The position numbers and the translations under genes are program-made. Source: a virus. Taken from it: 64,000 nt of DNA. The stretch lies in IMG/VR virus record IMGVR_UViG_3300045806_000119, positions 1-64,000 of that record, one strand, 5' to 3'. The notes under the pieces were generated by a model that worked only from the letters and a program-made list of their open reading frames with translations, had not been told where the DNA came from and searched no databases. Positions 45,193-61,273 of this stretch are shown here, piece after piece (the stretch's first letter is position 1; every line of letters begins with the position of its first letter).

Positions 45193-45999
45193 TCACCCCG
45201 TTGGAGAGGGGTCGTCCACGTCGGCGTCGCCGTCAGCAGAGCCCAGGTTGGGCTCCACTGTAATGGTCGGCTCCTTGGTGAGGTTCGCGAAGGTGGCCAA
45301 ATCCGTATTGTCCAGGTAGCCCTCCACCTTGTAGTTCCACACTTTGCAGTATTCGCGCTCGACGCCTGGCGAGCCCGAACGCACCGCGTTCCTCTTGTCG
45401 AGGTCCGAGTAGCTCTCGTACATCATGTCCCAGTCCCGGTACGACCCGTCGTTCTGCGGCACGCGCAGGTAGTGACGCGGAGGAAACACGCTGTAGACAT
45501 AGTTGACCAACAGCGCGCTCTGCACGGGGTCCTTCGCGTACGCACGCACCTCGACGACGATGTCGAAGGGGTGCTCCACGGGCCGGACCTTCGCCATCCG
45601 AGGCAGGCTCATCGTTGTGCCGTCAGAGAGCTGAATCGTCCGGGTCGACGAATTCACCGGAACGACGTAGCCGTCCCCCTGATAGCTCGGGCTCTGAAAC
45701 ACGTACTCAGCGTACCGGGGCGTGACGTCGAGAATCTCGAACGTGATTGACGGATATACGCGCGTGAACAGCTGCCCTTCGACGTCGAAGTACAGGACGG
45801 GCACCTGCACGCCGCCCAGACGCACCCCATGGCTCTTGCCGAGGTACGCAGCGATGGTCGCTGGGGTATTGAGCCCCGCGACCTGGTCGGGCACCCCGCT
45901 CCCACGCTCCTTCTGAAGGTCCGCAAGCGACGCCACGAACTCCGCAGGCTTCCCTTCGAGCCGCGACGCCACGGCCATCATCGTGGCTAAATACGCCAT
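45193..45999 (-). CDS. Neck/tail completion-region protein (268 aa)
   Basis: The ATG at 45999 overlaps the upstream stop as TAATG and has AGGA nearby; upstream residues in the longer frame are shadows. The protein has alternating alpha and beta elements (IAAYLGKSHGVRLGGVQVPVLYFDVE; PFDIVVEVRAYAKDPVQSALL), an ending rich in acidic residues, and two conserved-looking aromatic runs (FPPRHYLRVP; DWDMMYESY). The place between the gp10-like neck protein and the sheath suggests a tail terminator or head-tail joining role, as inference. Confidence 0.62.
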   Translation of the reverse strand: MAYLATMMAVASRLEGKPAEFVASLADLQKERGSGVPDQVAGLNTPATIAAYLGKSHGVRLGGVQVPVLYFDVEGQLFTRVYPSITFEILDVTPRYAEYVFQSPSYQGDGYVVPVNSSTRTIQLSDGTTMSLPRMAKVRPVEHPFDIVVEVRAYAKDPVQSALLVNYVYSVFPPRHYLRVPQNDGSYRDWDMMYESYSDLDKRNAVRSGSPGVEREYCKVWNYKVEGYLDNTDLATFANLTKEPTITVEPNLGSADGDADVDDPSPTG

Positions 46000-46433
46000 T
46001 AGAGTCCTACTCCCTTGATGACGCGCTGCCAGAACTTCTCTGCCTGCGTCTGAAGCACCCATCGCACGAGCGGCCGGATGTGCGGACGAGCAGGTACGTT
46101 CCCCCACCCGTATTCGAGCAGCTCTCCTAGGTCCGCGTTGGCCATGTTCGTGTTCGTGCCCTTCGCTTCGATGGAGAGCGTGTTGTCGTCAGACACCTCG
46201 GAATCGTAACTATTGATGTACGTCCCCGTGTCGACCAGCGGCGGCTTTCCGTCCGGGTGCCGCTTCGGGGCGAGGCCAAGCGCCCCGCTCTTCACCTTCT
46301 TCTGGAGCCAGAGCACGGCTTCGCCGCCGAGGACAGCCAGCTCCCGCCTCACGACCGGGTCAACGGCCTTCGCCGCTAGGCGCAGCTTCAGCTCGCTCTC
46401 AGAGAGCCCGGTCATGTGAACACGAATGGCCAT
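45999..46433 (-). CDS. HK97 gp10-like neck protein
   Basis: This 144-residue protein fits the HK97 gp10/neck type: an N-terminal helix, GGEAVLWLQKKVKSGALG, PLVDTGTYINSYDSE (typical PxDTGxLxxS motif), a strand, LGELLEYGWGNVPARPHIRPLV (ExG...PARPFxxP), and a final helix. The ATG at 46433 overlaps the stop of an 18-codon mini-gene as TAATG; an alternative start at 46496 would cover that mini-gene and lacks support. It probably joins head and tail. Confidence 0.78.
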   Translation of the reverse strand: MAIRVHMTGLSESELKLRLAAKAVDPVVRRELAVLGGEAVLWLQKKVKSGALGLAPKRHPDGKPPLVDTGTYINSYDSEVSDDNTLSIEAKGTNTNMANADLGELLEYGWGNVPARPHIRPLVRWVLQTQAEKFWQRVIKGVGL

Positions 46434-46489
46434 TAGACTAGTGACGGCTTCGTGCACTTGGCCCAGTCGAAGCGCTGTAGAAATTTCAT
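46433..46489 (-). CDS. 18-residue mini-gene encoding the head-protein leader alone
   Basis: The ATG at 46489 follows AAGGTG by five bases, and TAA overlaps the ATG of the gp10-like gene (TAATG). It encodes MKFLQRFDWAKCTKPSLV, whose first nine residues match the start of the head gene at 55555 (MKFLQRFNW) in protein and in most bases. It may be a coupling leader peptide, a peptide with a role of its own, or the remnant of a gene that once carried the leader. It is too short to be accepted without proof of translation. Confidence 0.5.
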   Translation of the reverse strand: MKFLQRFDWAKCTKPSLV

Positions 46490-46497
46490 TGAGCACC

Positions 46498-48063
46498 TTA
46501 TGGGAGGGTTGGCGTCCAGCCGTTCTGACAGATATCGACTAGGCCGTTTGTACTCGTCAGCACGATGTCCTGCGGGTTGTTTGCGAAGTCCATGTTCACC
46601 CACGCCGGGGACGTGAACGTCAGCCGTGTGGAGCTGACGATAGTGAGATTCGACACCGGCTTTCCGCCAACGGTTACGACGAGCCCCACGGTCGGGAAGT
46701 TCGTCCCGTTCACGGTCACCGTCGTCCCCCCCTGGATGGTCCCGCTCGTGGGGCTCACAGCCGTGCCGGACAGCACCCCCGACAAGCCAGTCCCCGTCCG
46801 GGCAAAGCGGGCTCGAAGCCCCTTCGTGGTCACCTTCAGCACGCGCGACGGAACGATCTCGCCGTTCCAATTCACCACGTACACGCGGTAATAGTAGGTC
46901 GAGTTCGGCTCCAGAGCTTCCTGCAGCGCGCTCGCAAAGCTCGACCCGGCCCCGTTCGGCAGGACGACGCCATCGATGAAGGTGTTGTTAGTGATGTTCG
47001 ACCCCGCCAGCTCCGCAGCGGTCCAGAAGAAGAAGCCGTCGAAGATGGGAGAAACGCGACTAGCGGTGGCCCCCAGCACCTGCTTCGAGGTAGACATGCG
47101 GCTGAATTGCGTGTTGAGGGGCAACGCGGGGCCGCTCGGCGAGCCGATGATCGCGGACGGGTTGTTCTGACTCGTCAGACGGCCCGAGATGCTCCGGTCC
47201 ACCTTCGGCTGCGTGTCCCGCCACACCTCCCAGTACGAGAAGCTCGGCTCGCGGTTCTGGCTCCAACGCAGCCGCACCAGGACGTCCTCCACATCGTCGT
47301 CGGCGGGGTCCATGAGGTCCGGGGGCTGGGGAGGCAGCGCGGCCCTGTACGGGTCCGTGTACCCCGCCCGAAGGCTCCTCCGCGACATGACGCCGGAGAT
47401 GACGTCCCCGGCCCCCATCTTCGACTCGTCCGCCTTCGGCACGGGGACGATGCGCTCCTGACGGCGCATGTCCTTCGAGTATTGGTCCTCCATGTCGCTG
47501 GCGAGGCGCACCAACGTGCTCGCATCCGTGTCGAGCCCTCGGCGCTTCGACGCGTCCGAGGCCAGCGTGCGGAACACCTGCGCCGCCGCCTTCATGATGA
47601 CGTACGGGTACTCGGGCTTGGGGACGGTCCCGATGGTGGTGTAATTCGGATTATGCAACGAGATGGCTTCGAGAAGCAGCTCGTTCAACTCCTCGTCCGC
47701 GAACATCCGGTGCTTGAGCGTGTAGCTCCTGCCGTTCGACACGTCCGGGATGCCGTCGACCTGCATGTCGATAGACGGGTGCCCCGACATAACCCCCGGG
47801 TCCGCCGTGATGGCGTAGCCAGTCAGGTTGTCGAGCGCGCTCATCAGCTTCCCGACCGTGTTGTATCGGGAGTCGCTCAGGTCGTAGCGCACGGGGACCA
47901 CATACTGTCCCCCTTCGATGGTGACAGTGAAAACGCCGTTAGCGATTTCGAGGTACGCGTTCTTGCAGTTCGCCGTGACCGTGACGGAGAAGGCAGCAAC
48001 GGAAGAGCGCTCGTCGGACACACGAGCGCGCAACTTCGAGACGAGGTCGTTCCGTGCTGCCAT
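46498..48063 (-). CDS. Virion protein with C-terminal IPT/TIG domain (521 aa)
   Basis: Residues 1-240 look like a head-tail connector or adaptor domain, with helical segments around 125-190. Residues 240-400 include a fibronectin-like part (DVEDVLVRLRWSQNREPSFSYWE; EPNSTYYYRVYVVNW). The C-terminal 90 residues match an IPT/TIG fold: VSPTSGTIQGGTTVTVNGTNF and SSTRLTFTSPA. The modular beta domains suggest surface exposure. It lies between decoration-like and neck genes. Confidence 0.65.
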   Translation of the reverse strand: MAARNDLVSKLRARVSDERSSVAAFSVTVTANCKNAYLEIANGVFTVTIEGGQYVVPVRYDLSDSRYNTVGKLMSALDNLTGYAITADPGVMSGHPSIDMQVDGIPDVSNGRSYTLKHRMFADEELNELLLEAISLHNPNYTTIGTVPKPEYPYVIMKAAAQVFRTLASDASKRRGLDTDASTLVRLASDMEDQYSKDMRRQERIVPVPKADESKMGAGDVISGVMSRRSLRAGYTDPYRAALPPQPPDLMDPADDDVEDVLVRLRWSQNREPSFSYWEVWRDTQPKVDRSISGRLTSQNNPSAIIGSPSGPALPLNTQFSRMSTSKQVLGATASRVSPIFDGFFFWTAAELAGSNITNNTFIDGVVLPNGAGSSFASALQEALEPNSTYYYRVYVVNWNGEIVPSRVLKVTTKGLRARFARTGTGLSGVLSGTAVSPTSGTIQGGTTVTVNGTNFPTVGLVVTVGGKPVSNLTIVSSTRLTFTSPAWVNMDFANNPQDIVLTSTNGLVDICQNGWTPTLP

Positions 48064-48081
48064 TCTGAGTCACCTTCCTGC

Positions 48082-48480
48082 TCAGCGGTGTGACGTGACG
48101 ACACGGATGGGGACGACCCACGGGTTCGGACCCTGGGACAGCTCCTCCGCGTGGTTCGGGTCCATCATGATCTCCGCCCCCTTCTTGAGCACATACCGCC
48201 GACTTCCCATCGTGCAGATGCTCTCGTTCTGGAGACAGGTGACCGGAATGTCCCCTGCGTGCTTCACGGGCGTCGCGATGGCGGGGGACTTCGGCGAAGC
48301 GGCATGGTGAGCGGAGGCGGCCTGCGCCCGCTCCACCATGTCGGCCGCTTCCTTCGCGGCTTTCTTCGCTTCCTCCTCCTCCTCCATCTGCTTCAGCAAG
48401 GCCGCCTCGTCGTCCGCCGGGCTACGGGTCGGACTGACGACGGGTCTACCGGGCTTCGTGGTCTGCGTGTCGGTTGCCAT
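48082..48480 (-). CDS. Unknown head-region protein with acidic coiled coil (132 aa)
   Basis: The first half is a polar, alanine/glutamate-rich helix (EAALLKQMEEEEEAKKAAKE), probably a coiled coil. The second half holds a small domain with CLQNESICTMGSRRY and KKGAEIMMDPNHAEEL. It resembles C-terminal capsid-accessory domains, but no family is clear. It lies downstream of the decoration-like gene. Confidence 0.6.
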   Translation of the reverse strand: MATDTQTTKPGRPVVSPTRSPADDEAALLKQMEEEEEAKKAAKEAADMVERAQAASAHHAASPKSPAIATPVKHAGDIPVTCLQNESICTMGSRRYVLKKGAEIMMDPNHAEELSQGPNPWVVPIRVVTSHR

Positions 48481-48528
48481 TCGAGCTGTTCCTTTGCTTA
48501 GAAAATGAACTATTCAGTTTGACGAGAG

Positions 48529-48903
48529 TTACCCGTTGATGGCCGCAATCGGGGCGTAGGGGATCGAGAGGATCGCCCCGGCCGGGATGGCGCCAGACGC
48601 CGTGAGGATAGTGACACCCGTCGACACGTTGTGGCTCGTGACCGCAAGCTGCGTAGCCTGCGTCGAGTAGGTGCTGCCTGCCAGCGTGTAGACAGGCAGC
48701 GGCGAGTCGACAGGGAGGAGCCCCGCCGCCTGACCCGGCGGCACAGTGACAGCGAGGGTGTCGGCCGCCGCCATCGTGGTACCCACGGTGACCTGAACCC
48801 ACTGGAGATTCGCATCATTGACGCCGCGTCCCGTCGCGACGCCCTGGGCGGTGTAGGCGGTGTACGCCTGGAGAAACTTCTTGATGACCTTCTTGAGTCG
48901 CAT
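48529..48903 (-). CDS. Small head protein with leader, decoration-like (124 aa)
   Basis: The protein starts MRLKKVIKKFLQAYTAYTAQG, whose KFLQAYT fits the leader consensus of neighbouring head genes. The remaining 95 residues are beta-rich and small-residue-rich (ADTLAVTVPPGQAAGLLPV; GVTILTASGAIPAGAILSIP), the composition of capsid decoration proteins. It lies directly after the major capsid gene in transcription, where decoration or head-fibre genes often lie. Function is inferred. Confidence 0.62.
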   Translation of the reverse strand: MRLKKVIKKFLQAYTAYTAQGVATGRGVNDANLQWVQVTVGTTMAAADTLAVTVPPGQAAGLLPVDSPLPVYTLAGSTYSTQATQLAVTSHNVSTGVTILTASGAIPAGAILSIPYAPIAAING

Positions 48904-48937
48904 GGCTGTTAGTCCTTTTTCTTGCTCGGGTTGAAGG

Positions 48938-49921
48938 TCAGGCAGTCTCGATCACGAGACTGTTCTTCGTCTCCAGGAGGCCCTGGCCCCAGATGGCGTA
49001 CCAGGCGAGCGCGTGCTCGCGGCCGAAGTCCTGGATGCCGTTGTCGCGCAGCTCGACGGGGAGCGCGATGGCGTGGCCGTACGCGTACTCCCCGAAGACG
49101 ACCGCCTGGTAGATGGTCGTGAGGAGGCCGCCCGTGGCGAGCGGGTCGAGCAGCGGGTCGTAACCCGGGTCGGCGTAGTCGCCGCTCGGGTCGAGGACGC
49201 TGTTCTTGCCGTTCGCCATCATCGACGTGCTGACGAAGCGGAAGTCGTTGAACCGACCGACCTCGCCGTAGAAGATCGGCATGGCGCCCGCGTAGTGCGC
49301 GGCGTTGATCCACCCCGCCGACTTGCGCAGCCCGGTGAGCTGGTGCGGGTGAGCGAAGGCGACGTAGAAGTCGTTCCCCCACTTCGGCGCGTTGTTCGTC
49401 TCCATCGCCTCGTTCGCGTTCAGCACCTCATTGGTGGTGAACACGTCGCCAGTGGCGAGCGCGCCGCGCGACGTCTTGTCGTTCGCGTACACCTTCGTCG
49501 TGCCGTAGCGCACGACGTCGCGCAGCTCGGTGTCGAGCACGATCGCCATGTCGCGACCGAGCATCATCGCCGCCGCCGCGAGGTTGTCGTAGAACGACGT
49601 CTGGAGCAGGCGCTCCGTAAGGCCGATCGCGTTGCCCTGCTCGGCGACCGTAATATTGATGGTGGACATCGCCATCGACTTGGTCTGGAGCCTGACGCCT
49701 TCCGTCAGCTGCCCGCCTCGCTTGATGTTGCCGAACTTCGGCATGACGATGTTCGCGCCAGGTGCTGTCCCCAGCTCCTCCTTGCGCGTGGCGAACTGGT
49801 CGAACCGGAGGTTCGGCTGCGCCTGGAAGTAGATTTCCGCGCTGTAGACGTCGCGGGTGGCCGTGAGCAGGGCAGAGAACCCCGGTCCGGTCGTCTGTGC
49901 AGTGGTCAGCACTGAGGGCAT
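48938..49921 (-). CDS. Major capsid protein, N4 gp56-like
   Basis: This 327-residue protein fits the N4-gp56 capsid family: a start with DVYSAEIYFQAQPNLRFDQF, then APGANIVMPKFGNIKRGGQLTEG, then STINITVAEQGNAIGLTERL, and a middle with FYVAFAHPHQLTGLRK and GAMPIFYGEVGRFNDFRFV. These have the HK97 fold. It has no KFLQ-type leader, unlike the putative scaffold just upstream. AAGAGGAAAAAG precedes the start. Confidence 0.88.
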   Translation of the reverse strand: MPSVLTTAQTTGPGFSALLTATRDVYSAEIYFQAQPNLRFDQFATRKEELGTAPGANIVMPKFGNIKRGGQLTEGVRLQTKSMAMSTINITVAEQGNAIGLTERLLQTSFYDNLAAAAMMLGRDMAIVLDTELRDVVRYGTTKVYANDKTSRGALATGDVFTTNEVLNANEAMETNNAPKWGNDFYVAFAHPHQLTGLRKSAGWINAAHYAGAMPIFYGEVGRFNDFRFVSTSMMANGKNSVLDPSGDYADPGYDPLLDPLATGGLLTTIYQAVVFGEYAYGHAIALPVELRDNGIQDFGREHALAWYAIWGQGLLETKNSLVIETA

Positions 49922-49982
49922 CGCTTTTTCCTCTTCTCTCGATTGTTGGGTTGGTTGGCCTACCGCTCAGTGGTTGAGACGG

Positions 49983-51053
49983 TCATTGTCCCCCTGCCCT
50001 ACGACCGGACAGGGATGCTTCTGCTGCTGCCCGAGCGGCGGCCATGTCGGCTTGGCTCGGCTGTCCCGTGGCCTGGTACTGCCCCGGGGCTACCTCCTGC
50101 TGAAAGTGGGCTGGCTGTGGAGCCCGACCAGGAAATCCTGCTGATGGAACGCCGCGTGTTGGTGCCTGCGCAGGAGCACCCTGCGGCGACATCTGCGGAG
50201 CCGAGACGCCAGCGAACGGATTCGCCGAGGCCACAGCCGGCCCACGCGACTGCGACGGGGGGACGAGGCCGGGTAGGCTCTGCCCGGACAGGGAAAACTG
50301 CCCCGGCGGTCCCTGCATCCCCGAACGAAGCGCGGCGTGCAGGGCCTGGCGGTTCTTCGCGTAGTCACCGTTCCGAATCGCGTCGGAGCTGGTGAAGTAC
50401 GCGAGCTGCTCCTGCGAAATCGCGTTAGGACCCGTGTCAGCGACGCCGGGAGCCGATACGAAGCCGGGAAGGCTCGGCGCCGGGGGCGCAACCTGCGTCG
50501 AAGTCACGGTCCCCTGCGGGACAGCCGGAGGAGGCGCTTCGACCGGAGCTGCAGCAGCAGGAACGGCGGGGGGCGGCGGAGGCGGGGGGTTCTTCTCCGC
50601 GAACTGCCGATGCAGCTGCTCGTACTCCGCCGTGGCAATGAGAATGCTCTGGTCGATCTCCGCCGTCGTGTTACCCCGCACGATTGCGTCAATGAGGTTC
50701 TTGCCGTTGGCCCGAACCGCGTTGATCGCCTGCGCCTGGTACGTGTCAAGGCGCATGCGCTCCAGCTGCAGGGTCAGGCGCGCGTTATCCGCCTGCACCT
50801 GCGTGATGGCCGCCGCCTGCTCGGGGGAGAGCGCGGGAGCGACAACGGTGATGGGGGCCGCCGGCGCCGGTGCGGACGGCGCGGGAGCCTGCTGTGCAGC
50901 CAGCACCCTCGCCAGCTCGTACACCATCCCCGCGGGGACGGTGGACGAGGGGGAGTAGGGGGTCGGCTGTGCTGCGGGTGGAGAAGGCGTCTGGCCCTCC
51001 GCACCTTCGGGATCGAATCTCTTGAGGAAGCGAAACATGTTAGTCGAGTTCAT
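49983..51053 (-). CDS. Putative scaffold protein with leader (356 aa)
   Basis: This 356-residue protein lies between portal and capsid genes, the usual scaffold position. It has a proline/alanine-rich, low-complexity body, a central helix of coiled-coil type (LSPEQAAAITQVQADNARL to IDAIVRGNTTAEI), and a C-terminal half with GQ and PQ repeats. The start MNSTNMFRFLKRFDPEG carries FLKRFD, a close match to the leader consensus. Staphylococcal 80alpha scaffold has an analogous Prp-cleaved N-terminal leader. Scaffold identity is inferred from position and composition. Confidence 0.65.
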   Translation of the reverse strand: MNSTNMFRFLKRFDPEGAEGQTPSPPAAQPTPYSPSSTVPAGMVYELARVLAAQQAPAPSAPAPAAPITVVAPALSPEQAAAITQVQADNARLTLQLERMRLDTYQAQAINAVRANGKNLIDAIVRGNTTAEIDQSILIATAEYEQLHRQFAEKNPPPPPPPAVPAAAAPVEAPPPAVPQGTVTSTQVAPPAPSLPGFVSAPGVADTGPNAISQEQLAYFTSSDAIRNGDYAKNRQALHAALRSGMQGPPGQFSLSGQSLPGLVPPSQSRGPAVASANPFAGVSAPQMSPQGAPAQAPTRGVPSAGFPGRAPQPAHFQQEVAPGQYQATGQPSQADMAAARAAAEASLSGRRAGGQ

Positions 51054-51086
51054 TTGAGCAGATTTCCTTTCTTCACCCGCAGTTGT

Positions 51087-51341
51087 TCAGATCCGGCCCG
51101 TCTTGCGAACGGACTGGTCGGGGACCGGGAGCATCCCCGTGTTGGCGCTCGGGTGCATCGGCCCCCCGTTGCGGTTGAGGCTCTGGTTCGGCCACTCCCT
51201 GATCGCCGTGCGATGCACGGCCGAGGGACCCATCTTTTCGCCGAGCGACTGCTCGCCCTGCGCGACATCGGCGGTGCCGTTCCCGGTCCGCGTGATGTCC
51301 TTCTCCTTGGTTGCTGCACGCGAGTGAATCTCTCCGGCCAT
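51087..51341 (-). CDS. Small unknown head-region protein (84 aa)
   Basis: The ATG at 51341 follows GAGG by eight bases and is preferred over a longer frame from 51404. The protein is polar and glycine/asparagine-rich (GPSAVHRTAIREWPNQSLN). It could be a small head accessory. It lies just downstream of a terminator-like hairpin, so it may be poorly expressed from the portal transcript or have its own promoter. Confidence 0.55.
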   Translation of the reverse strand: MAGEIHSRAATKEKDITRTGNGTADVAQGEQSLGEKMGPSAVHRTAIREWPNQSLNRNGGPMHPSANTGMLPVPDQSVRKTGRI

Positions 51342-51370
51342 GTGGAACCTCTTCTGGTTGGTTGTTGTAG

Positions 51371-51409
51371 GAAAAACGGTAGCTGGGTTGCTAAACCTCG
51401 GCAACCAGT
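51371..51409 (-). terminator. Possible terminator after the portal-linked gene
   Basis: On the minus strand CTGGTTGC and GCAACCCAG form an imperfect stem (one bulged C; plus arms 51401-51408 and 51383-51391) with a nine-base loop, then CTACCGTTTTTCC, a run of five T. It is close to the stop at 51417. Confidence 0.5.
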
Positions 51410-51416
51410 GGTGCTT

Positions 51417-51830
51417 TCACTGCGAAATCCAGAACGCGACGAGCCCTGCCGGCGTGTTAGCGGAGGCCGTCACCTGCACGTAGTACGTGAGGTACGCCCC
51501 GCCGATTTCCTGGACAACGGCATTGCCCTCGGTGACGACGAGTCCCGCCTTCACGCACACCCACGTAGGGCTGCTCGGGTTCGACCAGTCGAGAATCCAG
51601 ATGTTGACGGTCGCCGTCGATGTCCCGCCCGCCGTGTTCTTCATGGCGAACATGAGCGCGCCCTTGATCGGGAAGTACCAGTCCGGCGAAGTGGCTGGCG
51701 CCCCCTCGACCATCCCCGCCGTGCCGCCTGCCGGCAGCACTCCCGGCGGGAACGCCGGCAGGAGGGTGTTCGGGTTGGCGTCGACTGAGAAGTTCGTGCG
51801 CTGGAAGACGCTGCTGCGCTGCATACCCAT
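51417..51830 (-). CDS. Unknown beta-rich head protein (137 aa)
   Basis: This 137-residue protein starts at an ATG overlapping the portal stop as TAATG. It is mostly beta (MFAMKNTAGGTSTATVNIWIL; GGAYLTYYVQVTASANT) and hydrophobic, with one cysteine. The composition and place immediately after portal suggest a head completion or decoration protein. No leader motif. Family unknown. Confidence 0.6.
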   Translation of the reverse strand: MGMQRSSVFQRTNFSVDANPNTLLPAFPPGVLPAGGTAGMVEGAPATSPDWYFPIKGALMFAMKNTAGGTSTATVNIWILDWSNPSSPTWVCVKAGLVVTEGNAVVQEIGGAYLTYYVQVTASANTPAGLVAFWISQ

Positions 51831-54085
51831 TAGACCTTGACTCCTGGCTTGGCGTTGGGCGGCGTAGCGGGCTTGCTTGCCGCGTTGTCTCCGGGCACGG
51901 CCTTGTTCCCTCGACCAGGTCCCGGCCCTGGGGGCGGCGGCGCTCCGTTGTTGCTCCCGCCCGGCCCGGAGCCGGTGGCCCCCGGCGTCTGCGCAACCTG
52001 CGCCGCGAGCGGGTCCTCGATGGGCTTCCCGGTGAGCGCGGCGAGGAAGGGAATGTCATTAGCAATTTCCTCGTCCAGCTTCGGACCGTCCATCTCCTCA
52101 TCGAGATGATCCCGAATCCAACGCCGGCTCGACCAGCCATTCGTCTGGTACACCGCGTACAGATTCGCGTCCTCCTGCTTGTTCCGAGGGAGGGGGGTGC
52201 GCAGGGAGCAAGTCGTGCTGTACGGACTCAGGTATACCGGACGGCTGCAGCCGGACGGGACGATCTTCAGCTCGCCAAGGTCCTCCGTCACGAACTGCTT
52301 CGCGTTGGCGTCCCACGTCTTCACGATGACGCGCACCGTCTCCGGCTCCTCCGGGACGTCCATATCGTGATTAGCTAGCTGCTCAGGCTTCACCTCGGGT
52401 GCCTTGTCCAGCTCCTTCGGCAGCGGACCCGCTCTGGGCTGTGGCGGCGGGGGCAGGACATCTTTCGGCGCAGGCTTGCTGGCTTCCGCTACGGCGTGCT
52501 CGTGCTCGTCTGCCGCCTGCTGCTCACCCGCGTGGTGGGCCTGCACGGCACGAGCACGGTCGTGGTCATCCTGCGCCTTCTCCTCCAGGTCCACCTTCGG
52601 TGCCGGGTCCCAGTAGCTCGCCGACTCCTTGAGGAACGTCTCCTTCACGTCCCCGTACTTCATCTCCTTCGTCTCGACGCCGAACGAGAACTTCCGACGC
52701 CACTTCACGAGGACGTCGTCGGGGTCCATGAAGTCGAGCGTCTGCGGGTCGATGAGGTAGCACTTCTTCTTTTTCCTCCCCTTCCGCAGCGGGATGACGT
52801 TCCCCTTCGGCGAGTCTTCAACCTCGATGATTCGCCCGCCGCAATTCTTGCAGATGTCGACGGGGTAGCTCGTCCCGTTCACCAGCTGGTCGAAGCGGAG
52901 AATAAAATAGTTGATTTTCTCCACCGCAAGCTGGAACGACGCCTTCTTCCGCTCGATTGCCTCGACGAGCGGCTGAAACTGCACCTGCAGTGCGGCGGCG
53001 CTCGTGTTGCTCACGGGCTGTATCCGCCCCAGCGACCCCTCCGGGATGCTCGACACGTCCATCATCATCTGACGGATCGTCTCGATGTACTTCGTCGAAG
53101 CCGGCAGGTCGGAGCCCAGCGTCAGGTTGAACACCTTCGCGTCCGCGGGCAGCCCGGCCCACATGCTCTTCGGCCCGCGCTCCAGGTTCTTCGCCTTCGC
53201 ACCCGTGATGATGGTCACGGGCGCCGCGTGGTAGTTCACAATGTCACTAACATCGGTCATCTTCTCGTTCAGCTCGCGCTGAAGGTCGATGACTCCGTCG
53301 AGGTCCGACATCCCGTAATACTCATTAGGGAACGATTCGTTCACCCAGTGAACGAGTGGAATCTCCCCAAGGTCGTTCGGTCGACGCGTCGGCGCCCCGT
53401 CCTCTTCCCACCCCTCCACGATCTCCGTGGCCGTGATGTTCTCGATGTAGCGACGGCGACGCGACACGCCGAGCGACCCCTGCACCATCGGCGTGCGGCG
53501 GCCGTCCTCTGGCCCGACAGGGCCGAAGTCCGGCACCTCCGTGATGATGCGAACAGAGAGCAGCTCCTCTGAGTTCAGCGGGTTCCAGTACGGGAACACC
53601 TGGTGCGAGCCCAGCAGACGCAGGCGGATCTTGCCCTGCGTGTACGGGTTCACCGCCATCATCGCGTCGCTCGGCGGCTGGTACGTCACGAGGATGAACC
53701 CGTCCCCCGTCACGCCGCTCGTCACGGCCATGTTGTTCAGCAGGACAGGCTCGGCGTTGTACTTCCACACCTCGTCGATCTTCGGCTTCGTGATCTCCTG
53801 CAACGCCTCGGGGACGGAGTTCACCATCCCCTTGCCCACCAGCCAGCTCGCCTTCTTGTGGACGATGGTCTTGCAGTAGTTCGCGGTGACGAGCGGCTCG
53901 CCGTCCTCCCGCGTGAAGCTCCAGTGCAGCCCCTGGAAGAAACGCCACGACTCCTCGTACCGCTTCAGGCGCATCGCGTCCTGCGGGTTGAGGGCGATGC
54001 TGTTCAGCGTGTACGGAGCGTTCCTCCGCTCGTACGGAACGGCCGACCCTCCATTCCCCTGCAGTGCGAGTAGCTGGACGGGCAC
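51830..54085 (-). CDS. Portal protein (SPP1 gp6-like)
   Basis: This 751-residue protein fits the SPP1-type portal: RFFQGLHWSFTREDGEPLVTANYCKTIVHKKASWLVGKG near 48-88, then GVTGDGFILVTY, SVRIITEVPDFG, IPLVHWVNESFPNEYYGMSDLDGVIDLQRELNEKMTDVS (read in pieces) and MMMDVSSIPEGSLGRIQPVSNTSAAALQ. A CKNCGGRI near 420 suggests a zinc site. The C-terminal 230 residues are a proline/alanine-rich extension with coiled-coil sequence; usual portals of this class are about 500 residues. Confidence 0.87.
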   Translation of the reverse strand: MPVQLLALQGNGGSAVPYERRNAPYTLNSIALNPQDAMRLKRYEESWRFFQGLHWSFTREDGEPLVTANYCKTIVHKKASWLVGKGMVNSVPEALQEITKPKIDEVWKYNAEPVLLNNMAVTSGVTGDGFILVTYQPPSDAMMAVNPYTQGKIRLRLLGSHQVFPYWNPLNSEELLSVRIITEVPDFGPVGPEDGRRTPMVQGSLGVSRRRRYIENITATEIVEGWEEDGAPTRRPNDLGEIPLVHWVNESFPNEYYGMSDLDGVIDLQRELNEKMTDVSDIVNYHAAPVTIITGAKAKNLERGPKSMWAGLPADAKVFNLTLGSDLPASTKYIETIRQMMMDVSSIPEGSLGRIQPVSNTSAAALQVQFQPLVEAIERKKASFQLAVEKINYFILRFDQLVNGTSYPVDICKNCGGRIIEVEDSPKGNVIPLRKGRKKKKCYLIDPQTLDFMDPDDVLVKWRRKFSFGVETKEMKYGDVKETFLKESASYWDPAPKVDLEEKAQDDHDRARAVQAHHAGEQQAADEHEHAVAEASKPAPKDVLPPPPQPRAGPLPKELDKAPEVKPEQLANHDMDVPEEPETVRVIVKTWDANAKQFVTEDLGELKIVPSGCSRPVYLSPYSTTCSLRTPLPRNKQEDANLYAVYQTNGWSSRRWIRDHLDEEMDGPKLDEEIANDIPFLAALTGKPIEDPLAAQVAQTPGATGSGPGGSNNGAPPPPGPGPGRGNKAVPGDNAASKPATPPNAKPGVKV

Positions 54086-54088
54086 GGG

Positions 54089-54295
54089 CTACTTGCTCCT
54101 GGGGAGGCCGCCGGGAAGGCGCAGGTACCGCGACTCGGTTCCGAGCCCGAAGTCCATCTGACGCAGGGCCTTCGTCGGGTTCACGGCGGCGGGCGGCGCG
54201 GCAGCGTGCGCGGGACAGAACTCAACGCCCTCCGCCGCCGGCATGGGGCATTGGAACGCGTGGCACTTGGGGGGCGAGGTAAGTGTATCAGTCAT
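54089..54295 (-). CDS. Small zinc-binding head-region protein (68 aa)
   Basis: The ATG at 54295 is preceded by GGAGG at five bases. The protein has CHAFQCPMPAAEGVEFCPAH, a likely zinc site (CxxxxC...CxxH), and a C-terminal end YLRLPGGLPRSK. It lies three bases before the portal gene. The zinc site and size suggest a small regulator or portal accessory. The longer frame to 54517 is a shadow of the previous gene. Confidence 0.65.
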   Translation of the reverse strand: MTDTLTSPPKCHAFQCPMPAAEGVEFCPAHAAAPPAAVNPTKALRQMDFGLGTESRYLRLPGGLPRSK

Positions 54296-54812
54296 TTTTC
54301 CCTCCTGACTCTGGTCCAACAGCGATGATGCCGTCTCCGTCGATGACGACCTGGTGCAGCCGGCCTCCCGCGTAGCGGGCGCTCCGGTCACGCTTCTTTG
54401 CTTCCTCGGCGAACGTGAAGTGCATACCACGCTCAAGCGGCACGGGTCTGTCGTAGGTCTTGTCGTTCGCCCGCCCCGGCGCATACCGCAGCTCCGCCTT
54501 CGCGTGCAGCGTCTCATACAGGGCCGGAATCTTGTCCCGGAGCAGCACCTTCCGCTCTCTCCGCTTCTCCGCCGGCTTGACGAAGTCGGGCTGGAAATAC
54601 GGATTAGAACTGGCCTGCTCCAGGACGTGACCCGTCTCGCTCTTCGATGCCCCAGCCCTTCGACATTCCAGGATGAGGATGTGCCGGGCCACCCGTGTCT
54701 CCAACCACGCTCGCACGCGGTTGAGCACGTTCAGCCAGACACCCCGAACGCCGAAGCCCACGCGGTAATCGCGAGGGTCGACGAGCCGGTCGAAAAAGCG
54801 AGTAGTGAGCAT
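54288..54812 (-). CDS. Unknown head-region protein (174 aa)
   Basis: This 174-residue protein begins MLTTRFFDRLVDPRDYRVG, with an N-terminal helical basic region (RAWLETRVARHILILECR) and a C-terminal domain with PLERGMHFTFAEEAKKR and VVIDGDGIIAVGP. No leader motif. It overlaps the next gene by eight bases. Location just before portal could suit an accessory or small terminase-like protein, but no helix-turn-helix or coil signature of TerS is clear. Confidence 0.6.
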   Translation of the reverse strand: MLTTRFFDRLVDPRDYRVGFGVRGVWLNVLNRVRAWLETRVARHILILECRRAGASKSETGHVLEQASSNPYFQPDFVKPAEKRRERKVLLRDKIPALYETLHAKAELRYAPGRANDKTYDRPVPLERGMHFTFAEEAKKRDRSARYAGGRLHQVVIDGDGIIAVGPESGGKND

Positions 54813-54814
54813 TA

Positions 54815-55555
54815 CTAGCGCTTCGGCGTGTTGCCGCGCGGGTAACGACCCGCAGCGCCCTGCGGCTTGTAGGTGGCCGCAGAGGGGGTGCCGTTGTCCT
54901 TGGGGCCGCCGCTGCCCCTCTTCGACGAGGACCCGATGCCAACCCTCTGCGCTGTGTCGTCCATCGCCTTCTTGCTCGGCTTCGCGCTGCCGTGCGTTCC
55001 ATCGCCGCCAGCGAGGTACTCATGAGCGAAGTTCCGCGTCGCGCCCTTGAAGTGCTCGCTCTCGCCCAGCTGCTTCATCGCCCGCTCGGTCATCTCCTTC
55101 TTGTCGACCGGCTTGCCGATGCTCTTGATGATTTTCTCCTGCTCCGTGGAGTGATACTCCGACTTGCCCTCGTGTATGCGTGCGGACCCCTGGTGGGAAA
55201 ACACGCTCTTCCGATGCGCCTCGGCCAGCGCGGCGTGGTTGGCGGCGTCGACGGTGTTCCCCGCAGTCGTAGCCATGCGAGATGCAGTGGCGTGCGCCAC
55301 CTGCGCGTCCCTGTGCGCCTGCTGCGCGTTCCTGTGCGCCCAGGCACCGCCTACCCGATTCGCGTTTCCCGTGCTGTCGTGCGCCTTCTGGCTGGTGTAC
55401 GACGCGTGGCTCGAAGCTTCGAGGTACTTCTTGTACCCCTCCGTCGCCGACTGGCGAGACGGGTGGCCGAAGGCGGACTTCGCCCCCTCCCCGGTCTTCC
55501 CGGTCTTGCGCGCGGCGTCGTACTTCTCCCAGTTGAATCGCTGTAGGAATTTCAT
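54815..55555 (-). CDS. Head-region protein with strong leader, histidine-rich (246 aa)
   Basis: The ATG at 55555 follows GGAG by seven bases; upstream residues in the longer frame lack a site. It begins MKFLQRFNWEKYDAARKTG, the clearest form of the shared leader. The rest is helical, alanine/histidine/lysine-rich (NAQQAHRDAQVAHATASRMA; GNTVDAANHAALAEAHRKS) and resembles phage internal or ejected proteins. It could be a packaged protein carried in the head. Family unknown. Confidence 0.65.
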   Translation of the reverse strand: MKFLQRFNWEKYDAARKTGKTGEGAKSAFGHPSRQSATEGYKKYLEASSHASYTSQKAHDSTGNANRVGGAWAHRNAQQAHRDAQVAHATASRMATTAGNTVDAANHAALAEAHRKSVFSHQGSARIHEGKSEYHSTEQEKIIKSIGKPVDKKEMTERAMKQLGESEHFKGATRNFAHEYLAGGDGTHGSAKPSKKAMDDTAQRVGIGSSSKRGSGGPKDNGTPSAATYKPQGAAGRYPRGNTPKR

Positions 55556-55572
55556 TGATTGGCTCCGATGGT

Positions 55573-56064
55573 TCAGGGTCGAACGAGGCACCACCGGATA
55601 GTCGACGTTTCCGTCCCCGATGTGCTGGTAATGGTGAACTGCGTGTTGCTCACGCGGGTACACGAAATGACGCCAGTCGTGCCACCCGCCGCCTGCACGG
55701 TCGCGTACAGCGTCGTGCCGACAGGGACGGGGAGCCCGCCATCCGTAGGCGCCGGCACGGTGACCGTGGTGCTACCGGCAACGAGCGTCGCCGTTCCCTG
55801 CGCTCCGTCGATGTTCTGCGCCCCGCTCGTCGCGACAGAAAGCATCTGAGGGGTGACCTGCTGGTCAACCGCCGAGCCCCCTCCGCTGTTGAGGTTCATC
55901 AGGTTCGCGTACACAGACTGCCCGTTGCTGAAGCTATGGATGAGCAGCTTGAAGTCCTGATCCTTGATGACCACCCCGCTGAGCCCGAGGCTCGTCAGCA
56001 CCGACTGAATCAGGCTGACGATGCTCGGGTGCGTCTTCGCGTTCGTGACTACCGTGGTGGTCAT
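55573..56064 (-). CDS. Unknown beta-rich virion protein (163 aa)
   Basis: The start overlaps the upstream stop as TGATG. The protein has a helical start (SIVSLIQSVLTSLGLSGVVIK), a middle with polar linker (GGGSAVDQQVTPQMLSVAT), and a beta end (TATLVAGSTTVTVPAPTDGG). No leader motif. Position among head genes suggests a head component. Confidence 0.58.
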   Translation of the reverse strand: MTTTVVTNAKTHPSIVSLIQSVLTSLGLSGVVIKDQDFKLLIHSFSNGQSVYANLMNLNSGGGSAVDQQVTPQMLSVATSGAQNIDGAQGTATLVAGSTTVTVPAPTDGGLPVPVGTTLYATVQAAGGTTGVISCTRVSNTQFTITSTSGTETSTIRWCLVRP

Positions 56065-56603
56065 CAGATGCCTCCGAATTTGTCGTAATCGAGAACTCCG
56101 CCGTCGACAGTGTCGACCGGCATCATCTCTGTCCGCTTGCCGTCCGTGCGGCCCGTGGGACGAGCGGGGCTGTTGAGGGTCGGCACAGGACGAACCTGGT
56201 GGTGCCCGTCCGCGTTCGACGGGAGTATCTCGCCGTACGTACCGTCCTGCTCCGACTGGTACTCGTACGCCGTCTCCGGGTCCTTCTGTCCGAGACGGTC
56301 AAAGCGCCCGCGGTCGAAGTTGCGCAGCTCGGTCTGCCCGACCCGTCCGCTCTCCACGACGTTGTTGTGGGCCGCGCTCTCTCCCGCCTCGAACGACTCT
56401 CGCAGCGAGGTCTGTTCCGCCCGTCCGACGAGCGGCGCGTTACCTCGCAGGTTCGTGCGCGTCTCCAGATTCGGACCAGCCGCGAAGGGCGGCTGCATCC
56501 CCTGAGTCGTGGGCAGCACAGGTGTCATCGGACTCGCCGTGGGCACGCCGGCCGCATTGCCACCCTTCGGTGGCCTGCGAAAAAGTGCATTGAGATTTCG
56601 CAT
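56064..56603 (-). CDS. Unknown polar head-region protein (179 aa)
   Basis: The protein starts MRNLNALFRRPPKGGNAAG, which shares MRN with the neighbouring leader gene and LNALFR is only weakly like the leader. It is polar, with many Arg, Gly, Pro and Asp and few hydrophobic residues, and likely disordered. Stop and start are tightly packed with neighbours. No family is recognised. Confidence 0.58.
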   Translation of the reverse strand: MRNLNALFRRPPKGGNAAGVPTASPMTPVLPTTQGMQPPFAAGPNLETRTNLRGNAPLVGRAEQTSLRESFEAGESAAHNNVVESGRVGQTELRNFDRGRFDRLGQKDPETAYEYQSEQDGTYGEILPSNADGHHQVRPVPTLNSPARPTGRTDGKRTEMMPVDTVDGGVLDYDKFGGI

Positions 56604-56621
56604 GGCTGCCTCCGAACTCGA

Positions 56622-57122
56622 TTAGGAGTTGGTGATGTAGGGACGGATGGTGGGCTCCAGCACGAACAGGAACGACACCAGCGTCGAGCCGCTCACGAGA
56701 GTGGTGACGACGCGGAAGCGGTCGCCAGGGTTGAACGACTTCGAGAGGGGCGCGATGAGCCCCATCCCCGCCAGCGACTGCTGGTCGTTCGTCGGCTGGT
56801 TCGCGTTGCTGATGACGTACGGCGCCGTGAGCACCGACGCGAAGCCGCCTCCGGCCACGGGCGCCTTCTGCAGGTCGATGGTGTACGTCTCCGCCGCCGC
56901 CGCCGCACCCGTGATGATGAAGTAGGCGTCGCCGATGAGCCCAGCGAAGTCCACCATCCCCAGCTCGGTCCCGGCAGTGGTCGCGATGGCCGGCTGCTCG
57001 AACCGCATCTGGTTCATCTTGCCGATGTGCTTGCCGATCGCCTTGTCGTTGAGCGGCTGATCGAAGTCCTGGATGACCGAGAGCTTCGAGAACGTCTGGA
57101 GAAAGCGCTTCATGTTCCGCAT
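56622..57122 (-). CDS. Virion protein with leader (166 aa)
   Basis: The ATG at 57122 follows GAGG by five bases; the long in-frame extension upstream runs into the terminase and is rejected. It starts MRNMKRFLQTFSKLSVIQ, matching the leader consensus (FLQTFS). The rest is a beta-rich domain with TYTIDLQKAPVAGGGFASVL and FNPGDRFRVVTTLVSGSTLVS, as in phage decoration or head-fibre proteins. It lies directly after the terminase gene. Confidence 0.66.
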   Translation of the reverse strand: MRNMKRFLQTFSKLSVIQDFDQPLNDKAIGKHIGKMNQMRFEQPAIATTAGTELGMVDFAGLIGDAYFIITGAAAAAETYTIDLQKAPVAGGGFASVLTAPYVISNANQPTNDQQSLAGMGLIAPLSKSFNPGDRFRVVTTLVSGSTLVSFLFVLEPTIRPYITNS

Positions 57123-57129
57123 GTTTTCC

Positions 57130-58788
57130 TCATCGCCGGTACCTGTCGGCTCTGCTGGGGTTGAAGTCCTGCCTACCCCCTCTTGTAGCATAAAAGGGGT
57201 TGTCAACTGCTTCCGCGCCTGCATCAACGCGTGGCTGCGCCGCCGCCCAGCAGCACAGGGCCGCTGAGTCGCAGTAGTCGTCATGATCCCCCTCTGGCGC
57301 GAAGCACCGAATGAACACGCCGACGCGGTCCTTGAGCAGCTCCTCGTGCTCATGGACGAACTGCTGAAACTCCGTGCTCTTGCGCATCTCCTCGCCCGCG
57401 GCGTAGCGCATCCGGCCGGCTTCCAGCTCCTGAATGTAATACTTGTACGCCTTGTCGTTGCCAACGTGCGACATCATGAACGGGACCACCTGCATCCCCG
57501 GCACGAGCCCTTGCAGTTGCTCGGTCAACGGGTCGCCGATGCCTGTAGCGTCGCACACGACCGTGTCGACGGAGTACCGCCCCAGCGCCTCCACGACGGC
57601 AGCGAGGATGTCGTGCCATTTTCGACCAGGTATCTCGTACCATGCCACAATTCGTTTAGTGTGGTAGGTCGGCGTGTCTTCGCCCGGCCGGATGACGGCG
57701 CGCATGTCAATGATGGGCACATCGTCCACCTCGGCGATGGTCAGGATGGTGCAGTCGCGCTTCCGCCCGTAGTCGAGCCCCGCGACGTAGCGTCGTGAAT
57801 ACCCGCTAGTGACGGCCTCCAGCAGGTAGTCTCCCGCCTCCGCGAACGCGTCGCGGTCAATGGCACCCGCGTTGGCCTCTTGCCACAGCAGGCGGAAGTT
57901 CTGGCGGAACTCCTCGTTCTCGATGTTCCCGCCGAGGCGCTTCAACTCCCCGCTCACCCACTTCTCGTAGGCCAGATGCTTCGGGTCCTTCGTCTCCTCG
58001 TAGCGCCTCCGCTTGTCGACGATGACGTGCGTGTACGGGAACTCGAAGTGGTTCCGCTTCCCCGTCAGCTTCTCCGTCTCGACGTTGTAGATAATCGACT
58101 TCCGAAAGTTCCCACGCAGCGCGTTGGCCGTGCCAATCTTTATCATTGACCCATTTGTAGCGGCCAGCATCGGCGCGATCTCTTTCGACAGCTTCACCTC
58201 TCCTACGAGCTGCGCCTCGTCGATGATGATGAGGTGAAAAGTCAGCCCTTCCACCGTGCTGCTCTCGCTCGCCGTCTGCGCAGTGACGAAGCTCCCGTTC
58301 GTCCAGGACACAAGGTCGCCTCGACTGGCAGCCACGGCCACGTTGATGTCCGGGTCGGAGTAAATCTCTAACGAAGACTCACGCTGAGCCCTCTGCCGGA
58401 TGCGTCCGTAGATGATGCCCGACTGCTGCTGCTTCGGCGCGAAGATGCCGATCCAGAACCCCTCCCTGTAGCGGCTCAGCCGAGGGTCGTCCGGGAACGC
58501 CTTTGCGAGTGCGGGCAAGATGATGCAGAGAGACGACGCCAGCGACGCGACGGCCTCACTTTTCCCGCTCTGCCGGCACCATAGCGCCGTGAGCACAGCT
58601 CCCTCATCTGCGAGGATGGCCTCCACCGAGCGGTGCATGAACACCAGCTGGTAGTTGTAGAGCTGGATGCCGGCGGGCTCGTTGTAGACCCGTACAAATT
58701 GCATTATCACGTCTGCCAGCCGCTTGTTGTCGAGCGGGCAGACGGACTTGAGCTTCTCTACAGGGACATTTCCACTAATTGGTTCCAT
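57130..58788 (-). CDS. Terminase large subunit
   Basis: This 552-residue protein would package DNA into the prohead. ATPase: Walker A CRQSGKSE at 71-78, Walker B HLIIIDEAQ at 185-193. Nuclease: GLDYGRKRD with D339, CDATGIGD with D413, and EGDHDDYCDS near 500. AAGGA lies nine bases before the ATG at 58788; an upstream in-frame start lacks a site. The start overlaps the end of the Prp-like protease gene by about 30 bases. No small subunit can be named. Confidence 0.9.
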   Translation of the reverse strand: MEPISGNVPVEKLKSVCPLDNKRLADVIMQFVRVYNEPAGIQLYNYQLVFMHRSVEAILADEGAVLTALWCRQSGKSEAVASLASSLCIILPALAKAFPDDPRLSRYREGFWIGIFAPKQQQSGIIYGRIRQRAQRESSLEIYSDPDINVAVAASRGDLVSWTNGSFVTAQTASESSTVEGLTFHLIIIDEAQLVGEVKLSKEIAPMLAATNGSMIKIGTANALRGNFRKSIIYNVETEKLTGKRNHFEFPYTHVIVDKRRRYEETKDPKHLAYEKWVSGELKRLGGNIENEEFRQNFRLLWQEANAGAIDRDAFAEAGDYLLEAVTSGYSRRYVAGLDYGRKRDCTILTIAEVDDVPIIDMRAVIRPGEDTPTYHTKRIVAWYEIPGRKWHDILAAVVEALGRYSVDTVVCDATGIGDPLTEQLQGLVPGMQVVPFMMSHVGNDKAYKYYIQELEAGRMRYAAGEEMRKSTEFQQFVHEHEELLKDRVGVFIRCFAPEGDHDDYCDSAALCCWAAAQPRVDAGAEAVDNPFYATRGGRQDFNPSRADRYRR

Positions 58789-59105
58789 TGCTTGGGTTCC
58801 TTGAAGCACGTATCGCGGAGGTCGAACTCGAAGTGACCATCATACGCGCACGCAATCAAGTGCAAGCCCATCAGCACGAACTCCAGCTGCGGCAGCCGGT
58901 GGAACGGTACGTCGAGGACCATGTCCCCGCAGCCATCGACATCCCGGTCCTTGTACGCTTCGACCGGCACGAGGTACGCGTTGAGCGTCATCATCAGCGC
59001 GCTCGTCCCAGCGCACACAAGCGGACCCTCATCCGTCTGCTCTGCGTGGCCGAGGACGCTGAGTCGTACGCCCTCCTTCGTGTCCTCTGTCGTGACCTGG
59101 ATCAT
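58758..59105 (-). CDS. prp: Prp-family (DUF464) ribosomal-processing-type cysteine protease
   Basis: This 115-residue protein fits the Prp family: MIQVTTEDT start, His20 in VLGHAEQT, Cys31 in LVCAGTSALMM, with 11 residues between as in the known H/C dyad (GHA...VCAGxSA). It also shows the later hydrophobic helix (EFVLMGLHLIACA). Prp of Firmicutes removes the N-terminal leader of ribosomal protein L27 and, in staphylococci, of phage 80alpha capsid and scaffold proteins. Here the gene is in the phage head cluster next to the terminase, among genes with similar leaders. GGAG lies five bases before the ATG. Family call is strong; targets are inferred. Confidence 0.85.
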   Translation of the reverse strand: MIQVTTEDTKEGVRLSVLGHAEQTDEGPLVCAGTSALMMTLNAYLVPVEAYKDRDVDGCGDMVLDVPFHRLPQLEFVLMGLHLIACAYDGHFEFDLRDTCFKEPKQWNQLVEMSL

Positions 59106-59170
59106 CTAAACTCCGCTAGAGACTAGGCTTGTAGGAGTGCTGGGTGACAAGCCCGAAGAAACCCTGCTGC

Positions 59171-59416
59171 TCAGCGGACCATGGACCCGATGCGTGCCCC
59201 GATGCGCCTGGCGCCAGCGACGACGCGAGCGATGATGCCGCGGTTCGGGTTGTTACCCCCGCGGCCAGTGCCAGCCGCGGTGCGAACGCCGAGGTTGCCG
59301 CCGCGGGGTCCGCGGGGAGCCGTGGTCGTGATGCGCTGGGGGCCGCGCTGCCCCCGGCCGGGCTGGTTGCCGTTGGCGGGGGAAGATCCACCACCGAACG
59401 TCTTGAGGAACTTCAT
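59171..59416 (-). CDS. Small basic head protein with leader, copy 2 (81 aa)
   Basis: The ATG at 59416 overlaps the stop of copy 1 as TGATG. It begins MKFLKTFGGGSSPANGNQP, identical to copy 1 for 19 residues, then diverges into arginine/glycine-rich sequence (RGQRGPQRITTTAPRG) and a final amphipathic helix (IIARVVAGARRIGARIGSM). A basic packaged or DNA-binding peptide is plausible. No ribosome site of its own is seen, so it should be translated by coupling. Confidence 0.68.
   Translation of the reverse strand: MKFLKTFGGGSSPANGNQPGRGQRGPQRITTTAPRGPRGGNLGVRTAAGTGRGGNNPNRGIIARVVAGARRIGARIGSMVR
59360..59416 (-). repeat. 57-bp direct repeat, copy 2
   Basis: This 57-base segment is identical to 59575-59631 and encodes the shared leader MKFLKTFGGGSSPANGNQP. 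Identity ends abruptly after the leader, as if only this cassette had been copied. Confidence 0.92.
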
Positions 59417-59631
59417 CAGCGCACCCGTGCCCCGGCGCGCGGAGGCGGCTGGTTGCCGCGCCGATACGGGGGGGCGCCGCGCTTCCCGCGCTCGGCGTTC
59501 GTCTCCGCGCCGAAGCTCTGCCCGGGACGGTTGCCGGGGCGGAGCGGGCGACCCGACGCCGAGAATCGGGACGGGGGCTGGTTGCCGTTGGCGGGGGAAG
59601 ATCCACCACCGAACGTCTTGAGGAACTTCAT
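59416..59631 (-). CDS. Small basic head protein with leader, copy 1 (71 aa)
   Basis: The ATG at 59631 follows AAGGAG by seven bases. The first 19 residues (MKFLKTFGGGSSPANGNQP) equal those of copy 2, and the rest is basic and proline-rich (RFSASGRPLRPGNRPGQSF; RRGNQPPPRAGARV). It is the first gene of the head cluster. The conserved leader over a divergent basic body suggests that the leader is what is being selected. Confidence 0.68.
   Translation of the reverse strand: MKFLKTFGGGSSPANGNQPPSRFSASGRPLRPGNRPGQSFGAETNAERGKRGAPPYRRGNQPPPRAGARVR
59575..59631 (-). repeat. 57-bp direct repeat, copy 1
   Basis: Identical to 59360-59416 and carrying the same start codon and leader. The copies lie 215 bases apart, start to start. 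Confidence 0.92.
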
Positions 59632-61209: not shown

Positions 61210-61273
61210 TTCTCAGATTCCTAACGTGAAAGGTTCCTTTTTCAGTCGCCGGTACCAGCTGGAGCTTACCCAT
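61187..61273 (-). CDS. Possible 28-residue mini-gene between queC and the DUF5591-like gene
   Basis: An ATG at 61273 lies inside the end of queC, four bases after GGAGGTG, and gives MGKLQLVPATEKGTFHVRNL plus eight residues. It ends within the next gene. The strong ribosome site may only serve coupling. Short length makes it doubtful. Confidence 0.35.
   Translation of the reverse strand: MGKLQLVPATEKGTFHVRNLRNDDYTVR

Follow-up and report, generated by a model that had tools for sequence, protein, structure and literature searches.

A phage-encoded Prp-like protease and a shared N-terminal leader on its predicted head and tail substrates

The uncultured phage described here carries a gene for a Prp-type cysteine protease directly upstream of its terminase gene, and comparison of its sequence with those of related phages indicates that this enzyme very probably processes a set of head and tail proteins of the same phage by removing a short N-terminal leader from each. 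The relatives possess the protease and the tags together or possess neither, from which it follows with high probability that Prp trims the whole tagged set during particle assembly. The stretch of DNA analysed (the window, 64,000 nucleotides) forms part of a viral record of 70,863 bases with a GC content of approximately 63% (G000), and contains a late module on the minus strand with small genes, prp, terL, portal, scaffold, capsid, tail sheath and gp19 tail tube. The features discussed below are as follows; predicted cuts are marked by a prime and placed after F, as Prp does in LQFF'A.

59416-59631, minus strand: small Gly/Pro/Arg-rich protein (71 aa, copy 1), leader MKFLKTF'GG, at a homologous position in all relatives with prp
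59171-59416, minus strand: small Gly/Arg-rich basic protein (81 aa, copy 2), leader MKFLKTF'GG, adjoining prp and a conserved neighbour of it
58758-59105, minus strand: phage-encoded Prp-like cysteine protease (115 aa, His20 and Cys31), assigned by PF04327, phrog_4478, PDB profile and AF2/Foldseek
57130-58809, minus strand: terminase large subunit, directly downstream of prp (phrog_2, E = 5e-23)
56622-57122, minus strand: post-terminase protein (166 aa), leader MKRFLQTF'SK, P1' Ser aligning with Ser2 of leaderless homologues
54815-55555, minus strand: Ala/His-rich protein (246 aa), leader MKFLQRF'NW at the ORF start
51830-54085, minus strand: portal protein, no leader (PF05133, E = 4e-17)
49983-51053, minus strand: probable scaffold (356 aa), leader RFLKRF'DP, immediately before the capsid gene, place and leader as in relatives
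48938-49921, minus strand: major capsid protein, no leader (phrog_1357, E = 1.7e-52)
48529-48903, minus strand: post-capsid (decoration-like) protein (124 aa), leader KFLQAY'TA, supported by leaders in relatives and by register
46433-46489, minus strand: 18-codon ORF, MKFLQRF'DWAKCTKPSLV, with AAGGTG upstream and a TAA that overlaps the next ATG (TAATG)
45999-46433, minus strand: protein in an HK97-gp10-like position, whose gene probably begins at ATG 46433 and is coupled to that mini-ORF, homologues in G002, G007, G006 and G027
42122-42673, minus strand: tail tube of the T4 gp19 family, leader PFLAAF'NR (MKSRILKPVLPFLAAF'NR), leaders also in G002, G006 and G007 (PF06841, E = 2.7e-28)
20345-24061, minus strand: tail-region protein (1238 aa), leader MRFLGLF'AS, aligning with a leaderless homologue in G002

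The Prp-like protease

The Prp/DUF464-type gene with His20 and Cys31 that had been recognised in the initial annotation is confirmed, the ORF at 58758-59105 on the minus strand containing both GH20A and VC31AG, with profile searches and AlphaFold/Foldseek in agreement. The 115-aa product matches PF04327 with E = 1.7e-5 and 25.4 bits, slightly under the Pfam cut-off of 27, and clearly matches the PHROG family phrog_4478 ('peptidase', E = 7e-9). A profile built from the Prp sequences of five relatives matches nothing in the PDB but Prps and related, uncharacterised structural-genomics entries (2idl, 1.5e-6; 4peo and 7kld, 1.2e-4), SaPrp and TmPrp being among the matches. The AlphaFold (AF2) model has a pLDDT of 82.5, and its best six Foldseek matches are all Prp structures (7jvs, 1s12, 7kld, 2idl) from S. 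aureus, T. maritima and S. pneumoniae, with probability 1.0 and TM of approximately 0.5-0.6. By profile and predicted fold, the protein is a diverged Prp; the annotated phage collection gave no match to it.

The His20-Cys31 dyad (GHA...VC) does not vary across the five relatives. The place of SaPrp Asp31, three residues before the Cys and essential in SaPrp, is occupied in the five relatives by P, T, F, T and V, and the absence of Asp there marks a deviant phage subfamily rather than the canonical L27-type Prp. In SaPrp, Asp31 and the P3 Gln of the substrate jointly hold the active-site loop (PMC9405229). The loss of Asp31 is matched in the phage leaders by the loss of the P3 Gln that it contacts, and this joint loss fits a changed specificity of the phage Prp.

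The leader and the proteins that bear it

The initial annotation had listed seven leader starts (59631, 59416, 57122, 55555, 51053, 48903 and, in the 18-codon ORF, 46489), and every one is present, each at the start of an ORF; further starts are nested in two of these ORFs, at ATG 57113 (MKRFLQTFSK) within the 57122 ORF and at 51038 within the 51053 ORF. A six-frame scan of the window with FL[QKR]x[FY] gives ten matches, seven of which are the listed starts; these seven lie on the minus strand, each no more than about 13 codons into an ORF. The looser motif [FY]Lxx[FY]-small, sought in residues 2-31 across the whole record, occurs in 10 of 87 N-termini, compared with a mean of 0.26 and a maximum of 3 in 2000 shuffles, and with 5 of 549 30-mers taken from protein bodies (Fisher p = 2.4e-6). 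Two leaders are additional to the initial list, those of the tail tube (42673) and the 1238-aa tail-region protein (24061). One of the ten N-termini, with FLLHFA at ORF 61987-62547, was rejected as a leader, being a hydrophobic signal-like start that probably matches by chance; also rejected was MRNLNALFRRPPKGG, with which the 56603 protein begins, because the conserved stretch runs on into the body in relatives.

The features of the N-terminal leaders are Leu at P4, Phe at P1 (once Tyr) and a small residue at P1'. P3 may be Q, K, G, E, A, D, S or N, with no fixed Gln as in LQFF'A, and Thr at P2 is a commoner feature than Gln at P3. The leaders at 48903 (Tyr at P1) and 24061 (Leu at P2) fit the consensus more poorly.

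The copies of the small protein that start at 59631 and 59416 agree in all of residues 1-19, which makes a tandem duplication (59171-59631) probable, and they are counted as one origin. The 246-aa protein, which has Ala-His repeats (AHRNAQQAHRDAQVAH), has no homologue among the loci compared. Of the genes of the module that were screened, the one before the capsid gene (49983-51053), where a prohead-protease domain might be sought, matches nothing in Pfam or PHROG. In the AF2 model of the 124-aa post-capsid protein, residues 1-13 are of low confidence and the body begins at about residue 16; a fold search gave no match below E 0.001. The gene that starts at ATG 46433, whose product has no Pfam match, has no Shine-Dalgarno sequence of its own, and the 18-codon ORF before it may perhaps be a leader that was split from its body by a frameshift and is now a coupling ORF; in G002 the neighbouring genes overlap and no counterpart was seen.

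Protease and leader in related phages

A scan of viral contigs with the Prp alignment found one relative only; with capsid, tail tube and terminase as baits, four further contigs were obtained in which prp lies directly before terL (G001, G002, G007 and L087). The search for prp-like genes beside such leaders that the initial annotation had suggested finds the leader kept with the gene: every contig in which prp sits immediately ahead of terL, five with G000, has [KR][FY]LxTF-small leaders. The small Gly-rich basic protein beside prp is leadered in all five, twice in G000 and once each in G001 (MQKFLETFGG), G002 (MKKFLGTFDG), G007 (MKFLNTFGG) and L087 (MKFLQTFGG). The scaffold has a leader in G000, G001 (KFLGTF'DN), G002 (KFLGTF'DE) and G007 (KYLGTF'NQ), and the scaffold bodies can be aligned across the relatives, including leaderless homologues from phages without prp. 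The post-capsid protein has a leader in G000, G001 (KFLSTF'SA), G002 (KYLDTF'VA) and the 9.5-kb fragment G006 (KFLGTF'AS), and the tail tube in G000, G002, G006 and G007. L087 ends before the scaffold, and its visible leader is that of the small protein only. The leader is not obligatory, being absent in G007 from the post-capsid protein, in G002 from the homologue of the 24061 protein, and in both G007 and L087 from that of the 57122 protein. The pattern FL[QKRA]xF is too narrow for the relatives and has nearly no matches in them, since they use FLG, FLE, FLN, FLS and YLxTF.

No leader was found in the regions scanned, in most cases a structural locus of 11-41 kb, of 13 large head- or tail-related phage records (59 kb or more) without Prp (G003, G005, G008-G010, G016, G020, G021, G024, G025 and W01-W03). 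The comparison of five of five with none of 13 gives a Fisher p of 1.2e-4, to be read with the fact that the phages are related and several contigs are fragments, so that the counts are not independent. On a weight matrix of the leader, 15 called genes of the leader-bearing set score 14.8-23.9 bits and the 24061 gene 10.9, and the best score among 558 genes from the structural regions of phages without Prp is 9.9 bits; the matrix was trained on the positives, so these scores speak for specificity and not for discovery. Among 20 further tail-tube records, both Prp and this leader are found in G007 alone. In bacterial genomes, the capsid bait had no matches and the tail-tube bait matched only distant gp19 proteins with no Prp nearby, so that no host was identified.

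Register of the predicted cut and alternative readings

In the four leadered tail tubes, the distance from the predicted scissile bond to DPLK is six residues in every case, and in nine leaderless tail tubes the distance from Met1 to DPLK is 6, 6, 7, 6, 6, 6, 6, 7 and 6 residues (for example, F'SRTDAEDPLKVWRF compared with M-SRTSVEDPLKVFRF). Three families besides the tail tube agree in register, mostly to within one residue. In the post-capsid protein, counted by hand, GVN lies 12 residues from the bond in G000 and G006 and 12 after Met1 in the leaderless G003 and G007, and the register is missed by two residues in G001 and by one in G002. In the 57122 protein, F'SKLS corresponds to M-SKLS of the leaderless G003 homologue (MSKLS) and to M-SKIS of that in G005 (MSKIS). 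In the 24061 protein, F'ASITRDTFTDS is one residue longer than the leaderless G002 homologue MRTTRDSFTDS (M-RTTRD). This register indicates that the leader is an addition before complete proteins, and that it ends at the Prp scissile position.

An uncut N-terminal tag would produce the same register, and for this reason cleavage is something that we infer. The leader could be a docking or chaperone tag that gathers structural proteins at one assembly site, with Prp as a binding partner or with other targets, and the finding that the scaffold leader of phage 80alpha is needed for assembly but its cleavage is not (PMC5744158) is a precedent; nevertheless, the leader ends exactly where known Prps cut, with small residues at P1', and the His-Cys dyad is kept in all five relatives, which makes an uncut tag unlikely. 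It is less likely still that a host Prp or some other protease does the cutting and that the phage Prp-like gene has a different role, as might be proposed from the reliance of 80alpha on host Prp and from the AT-rich fragments L038, L039 and L051, which have F'A leaders and no Prp on the fragment, because leader and phage prp are found together or not at all in these relatives and the leader sequence differs from the host LQFF'A type. The least credible alternative, that the leader acts in translation initiation or as DNA or RNA (as a late promoter, an enhancer or a ribosome-binding context) and encodes MKFLxxF only incidentally, could appeal to the several leaders that begin at the start codon and to the coupling of the mini-ORF at 46489 to the next ATG, but synonymous variation of the leader codons (Leu CTC/CTA/CTG/CTT, Thr ACG/ACC/ACA/ACT, Phe TTC/TTT) indicates that the peptide is conserved and argues strongly against it, as do the onset of the motif, which differs by protein from 1 to 36 codons past the start, and the absence of the leader from phages without Prp.

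Proposed role of the protease and leader

According to the favoured reading, removal of the leader by the phage's own Prp, a Prp-type cysteine protease would be made from the gene just upstream of terL, before or together with the late proteins, and would recognise at the N-terminus a leader with Leu at P4, Phe at P1 and a small residue at P1', the consensus being [KR]-[FY]-L-x-T-F' plus that small residue. It would remove this leader from about nine proteins of the head and tail, the candidate substrates being the small basic Gly-rich protein (two copies), the scaffold, the post-capsid decoration-like protein, the post-terminase protein, the 246-aa protein, the tail tube and the large tail-region protein, plus the 18-codon ORF. 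The leader would serve as a tag before otherwise complete proteins, whose native N-termini would be restored by the cut. If 80alpha is a guide, the folding and polymerisation of self-assembling proteins are probably delayed or coordinated by the leader until it is removed; the leader may slow polymerisation or act as a shared folding handle, and the 80alpha data favour a folding handle in the case of the scaffold. Removal would most likely take place in the cytoplasm, since the tail tube is presumably out of reach of a protease enclosed in a prohead.

The initial annotation had proposed that the phage uses its own Prp to process many head proteins, with the leader as a common capsid-targeting or processing tag on unrelated bodies. 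Processing of many leader-bearing proteins by the phage's own enzyme gains support from the Prp homologue, the shared cleavable-looking leader, the co-occurrence and the register, and the presence of a common leader on unrelated bodies holds for the leader set and for the positional homologues in relatives, which bear the same leaders. Both 'head proteins' and 'capsid targeting' are too narrow, because the gp19 tail tube and the large tail-region protein have leaders and the major capsid protein has none. It is quite possible, if somewhat doubtful, that the leaders constitute a virion-wide pro-peptide system governed by a Prp of shifted specificity (FLxTF', with ILxTH' as a possible counterpart in a sister lineage). 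In such a system the tagged proteins of head, tail tube and tail would be released together by a single protease, which would thereby control the assembly of head and tail alike, and tag and enzyme would co-evolve.

Why phage structural proteins have Prp leaders has been an open question since 80alpha. The leaderless sisters of a contractile-tail tube give the native N-terminus to the residue, and a phage with its own enzyme, some nine tagged proteins and leaderless sisters makes it testable by one protease mutant whether the leader is an assembly gate, a folding tag or a relic. The shifted motif and the loss of Asp31 would represent a natural change of specificity in Prp.

Comparison with known systems

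The prohead proteases of the T4 gp21 and HK97 type are phage proteases that trim several head proteins at a common motif; they are serine proteases, unrelated to Prp, that act inside proheads, whereas the enzyme described here is a predicted cysteine protease with the tail tube among its predicted substrates. The only other member named in MEROPS clan CR is the capsid-processing cysteine protease of phage Cp-1, which removes an N-terminal extension of approximately 40 residues (PMC9405229). The Cp-1 enzyme is likewise a phage cysteine protease that removes an N-terminal extension, but it acts on one capsid protein and is set apart by description.

Host Prp cuts L27 and the capsid and scaffold proteins of 80alpha, the scaffold leader being required for assembly and its cutting not, and staphylococcal phi13 has a motif of the host-Prp type on its major tail protein (PMC5744158). 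With the host Prp of S. aureus (MEROPS C108; PDB 7kld/7jvs), the phage protein shares the fold, here in a predicted model, and the His-Cys dyad; the leaders share P4 Leu, P1 Phe and a small P1' with the 80alpha system, as well as their presence on unrelated self-assembling substrates. The present case differs in that the phage carries the gene, neither Asp31 nor P3 Gln is kept, Thr is favoured at P2, more proteins are tagged, including the gp19 tail tube, and the capsid protein is untagged.

The cultured Enterococcus phage phiFL3A and the Lactococcus phage TP712 each encode a DUF464/Prp of their own, and in both the scaffold and capsid proteins bear classical leaders; in phiFL3A the major tail protein does so too. 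These phages resemble the present one in having prp in the packaging/head module and leaders on structural proteins; they differ in that prp follows portal instead of preceding terL, the leaders are of the classical LNLQFF'A type and fewer, the capsid protein is tagged, and the hosts are Firmicutes. A phage that encodes Prp together with its own leaders is not described in the literature searched, which mostly excludes subscription journals. The initial statement that no such system had been described was nonetheless too strong, since with phiFL3A and TP712 the pattern is not new in sequence, and by the same comparison the present case is a variant with predicted shifted specificity and not a new kind of system. 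The novel elements are that the phage belongs to a contractile-tail lineage, that a shifted motif goes with loss of Asp31, that so many proteins are tagged, that a small basic protein is conserved next to prp, and that a gp19 tail tube is a predicted substrate whose register is exact to the residue.

Sister lineages and other fragments

The sister phage G027, with 62% identity in the capsid protein, has a shared leader of another type, ILxTH, on the following genes.

L082 3595-4653: scaffold, HNILRTH'EGE
L082 4668-5699: capsid, MKKQISTFNRILTTH'SSVMTTA, compared with M-PSVLTTA in the window
L082 11497-12003: tail tube, RNILTTH'NNRTMAEDPLK

The major capsid protein, leaderless in the window, thus has in G027 a homologue with a leader of different sequence. 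The G027 contig is without terL and so does not cover the expected site of prp; that no protease was found in it is not evidence of absence.

In L155, a very diverged Prp-like ORF (1690-2291, E = 6e-4) lies between queC and terL and is preceded by a small Lys/Gly-rich protein starting MKTISEFEMFGG (MKTISEFEMF'GGKGGG); the capsid protein and tail tube of L155 have no leader. Contigs rich in AT (36-37% GC), among them the fragments named above, have possible leaders ending in F'A on scaffold, capsid and gp19 tail tube (L039 3123, 3996 and 9953; L051 1314), and their tail tube is again six residues from the bond to DPYK. In the window, two QueC-family genes (61266-61964, strong; 59711-60433, weaker) flank a DUF5591-like gene, and from their sequences the genes at 59711-61964 are probably 7-deazaguanine DNA modification genes; queC also adjoins prp in G007, L087 and L155.
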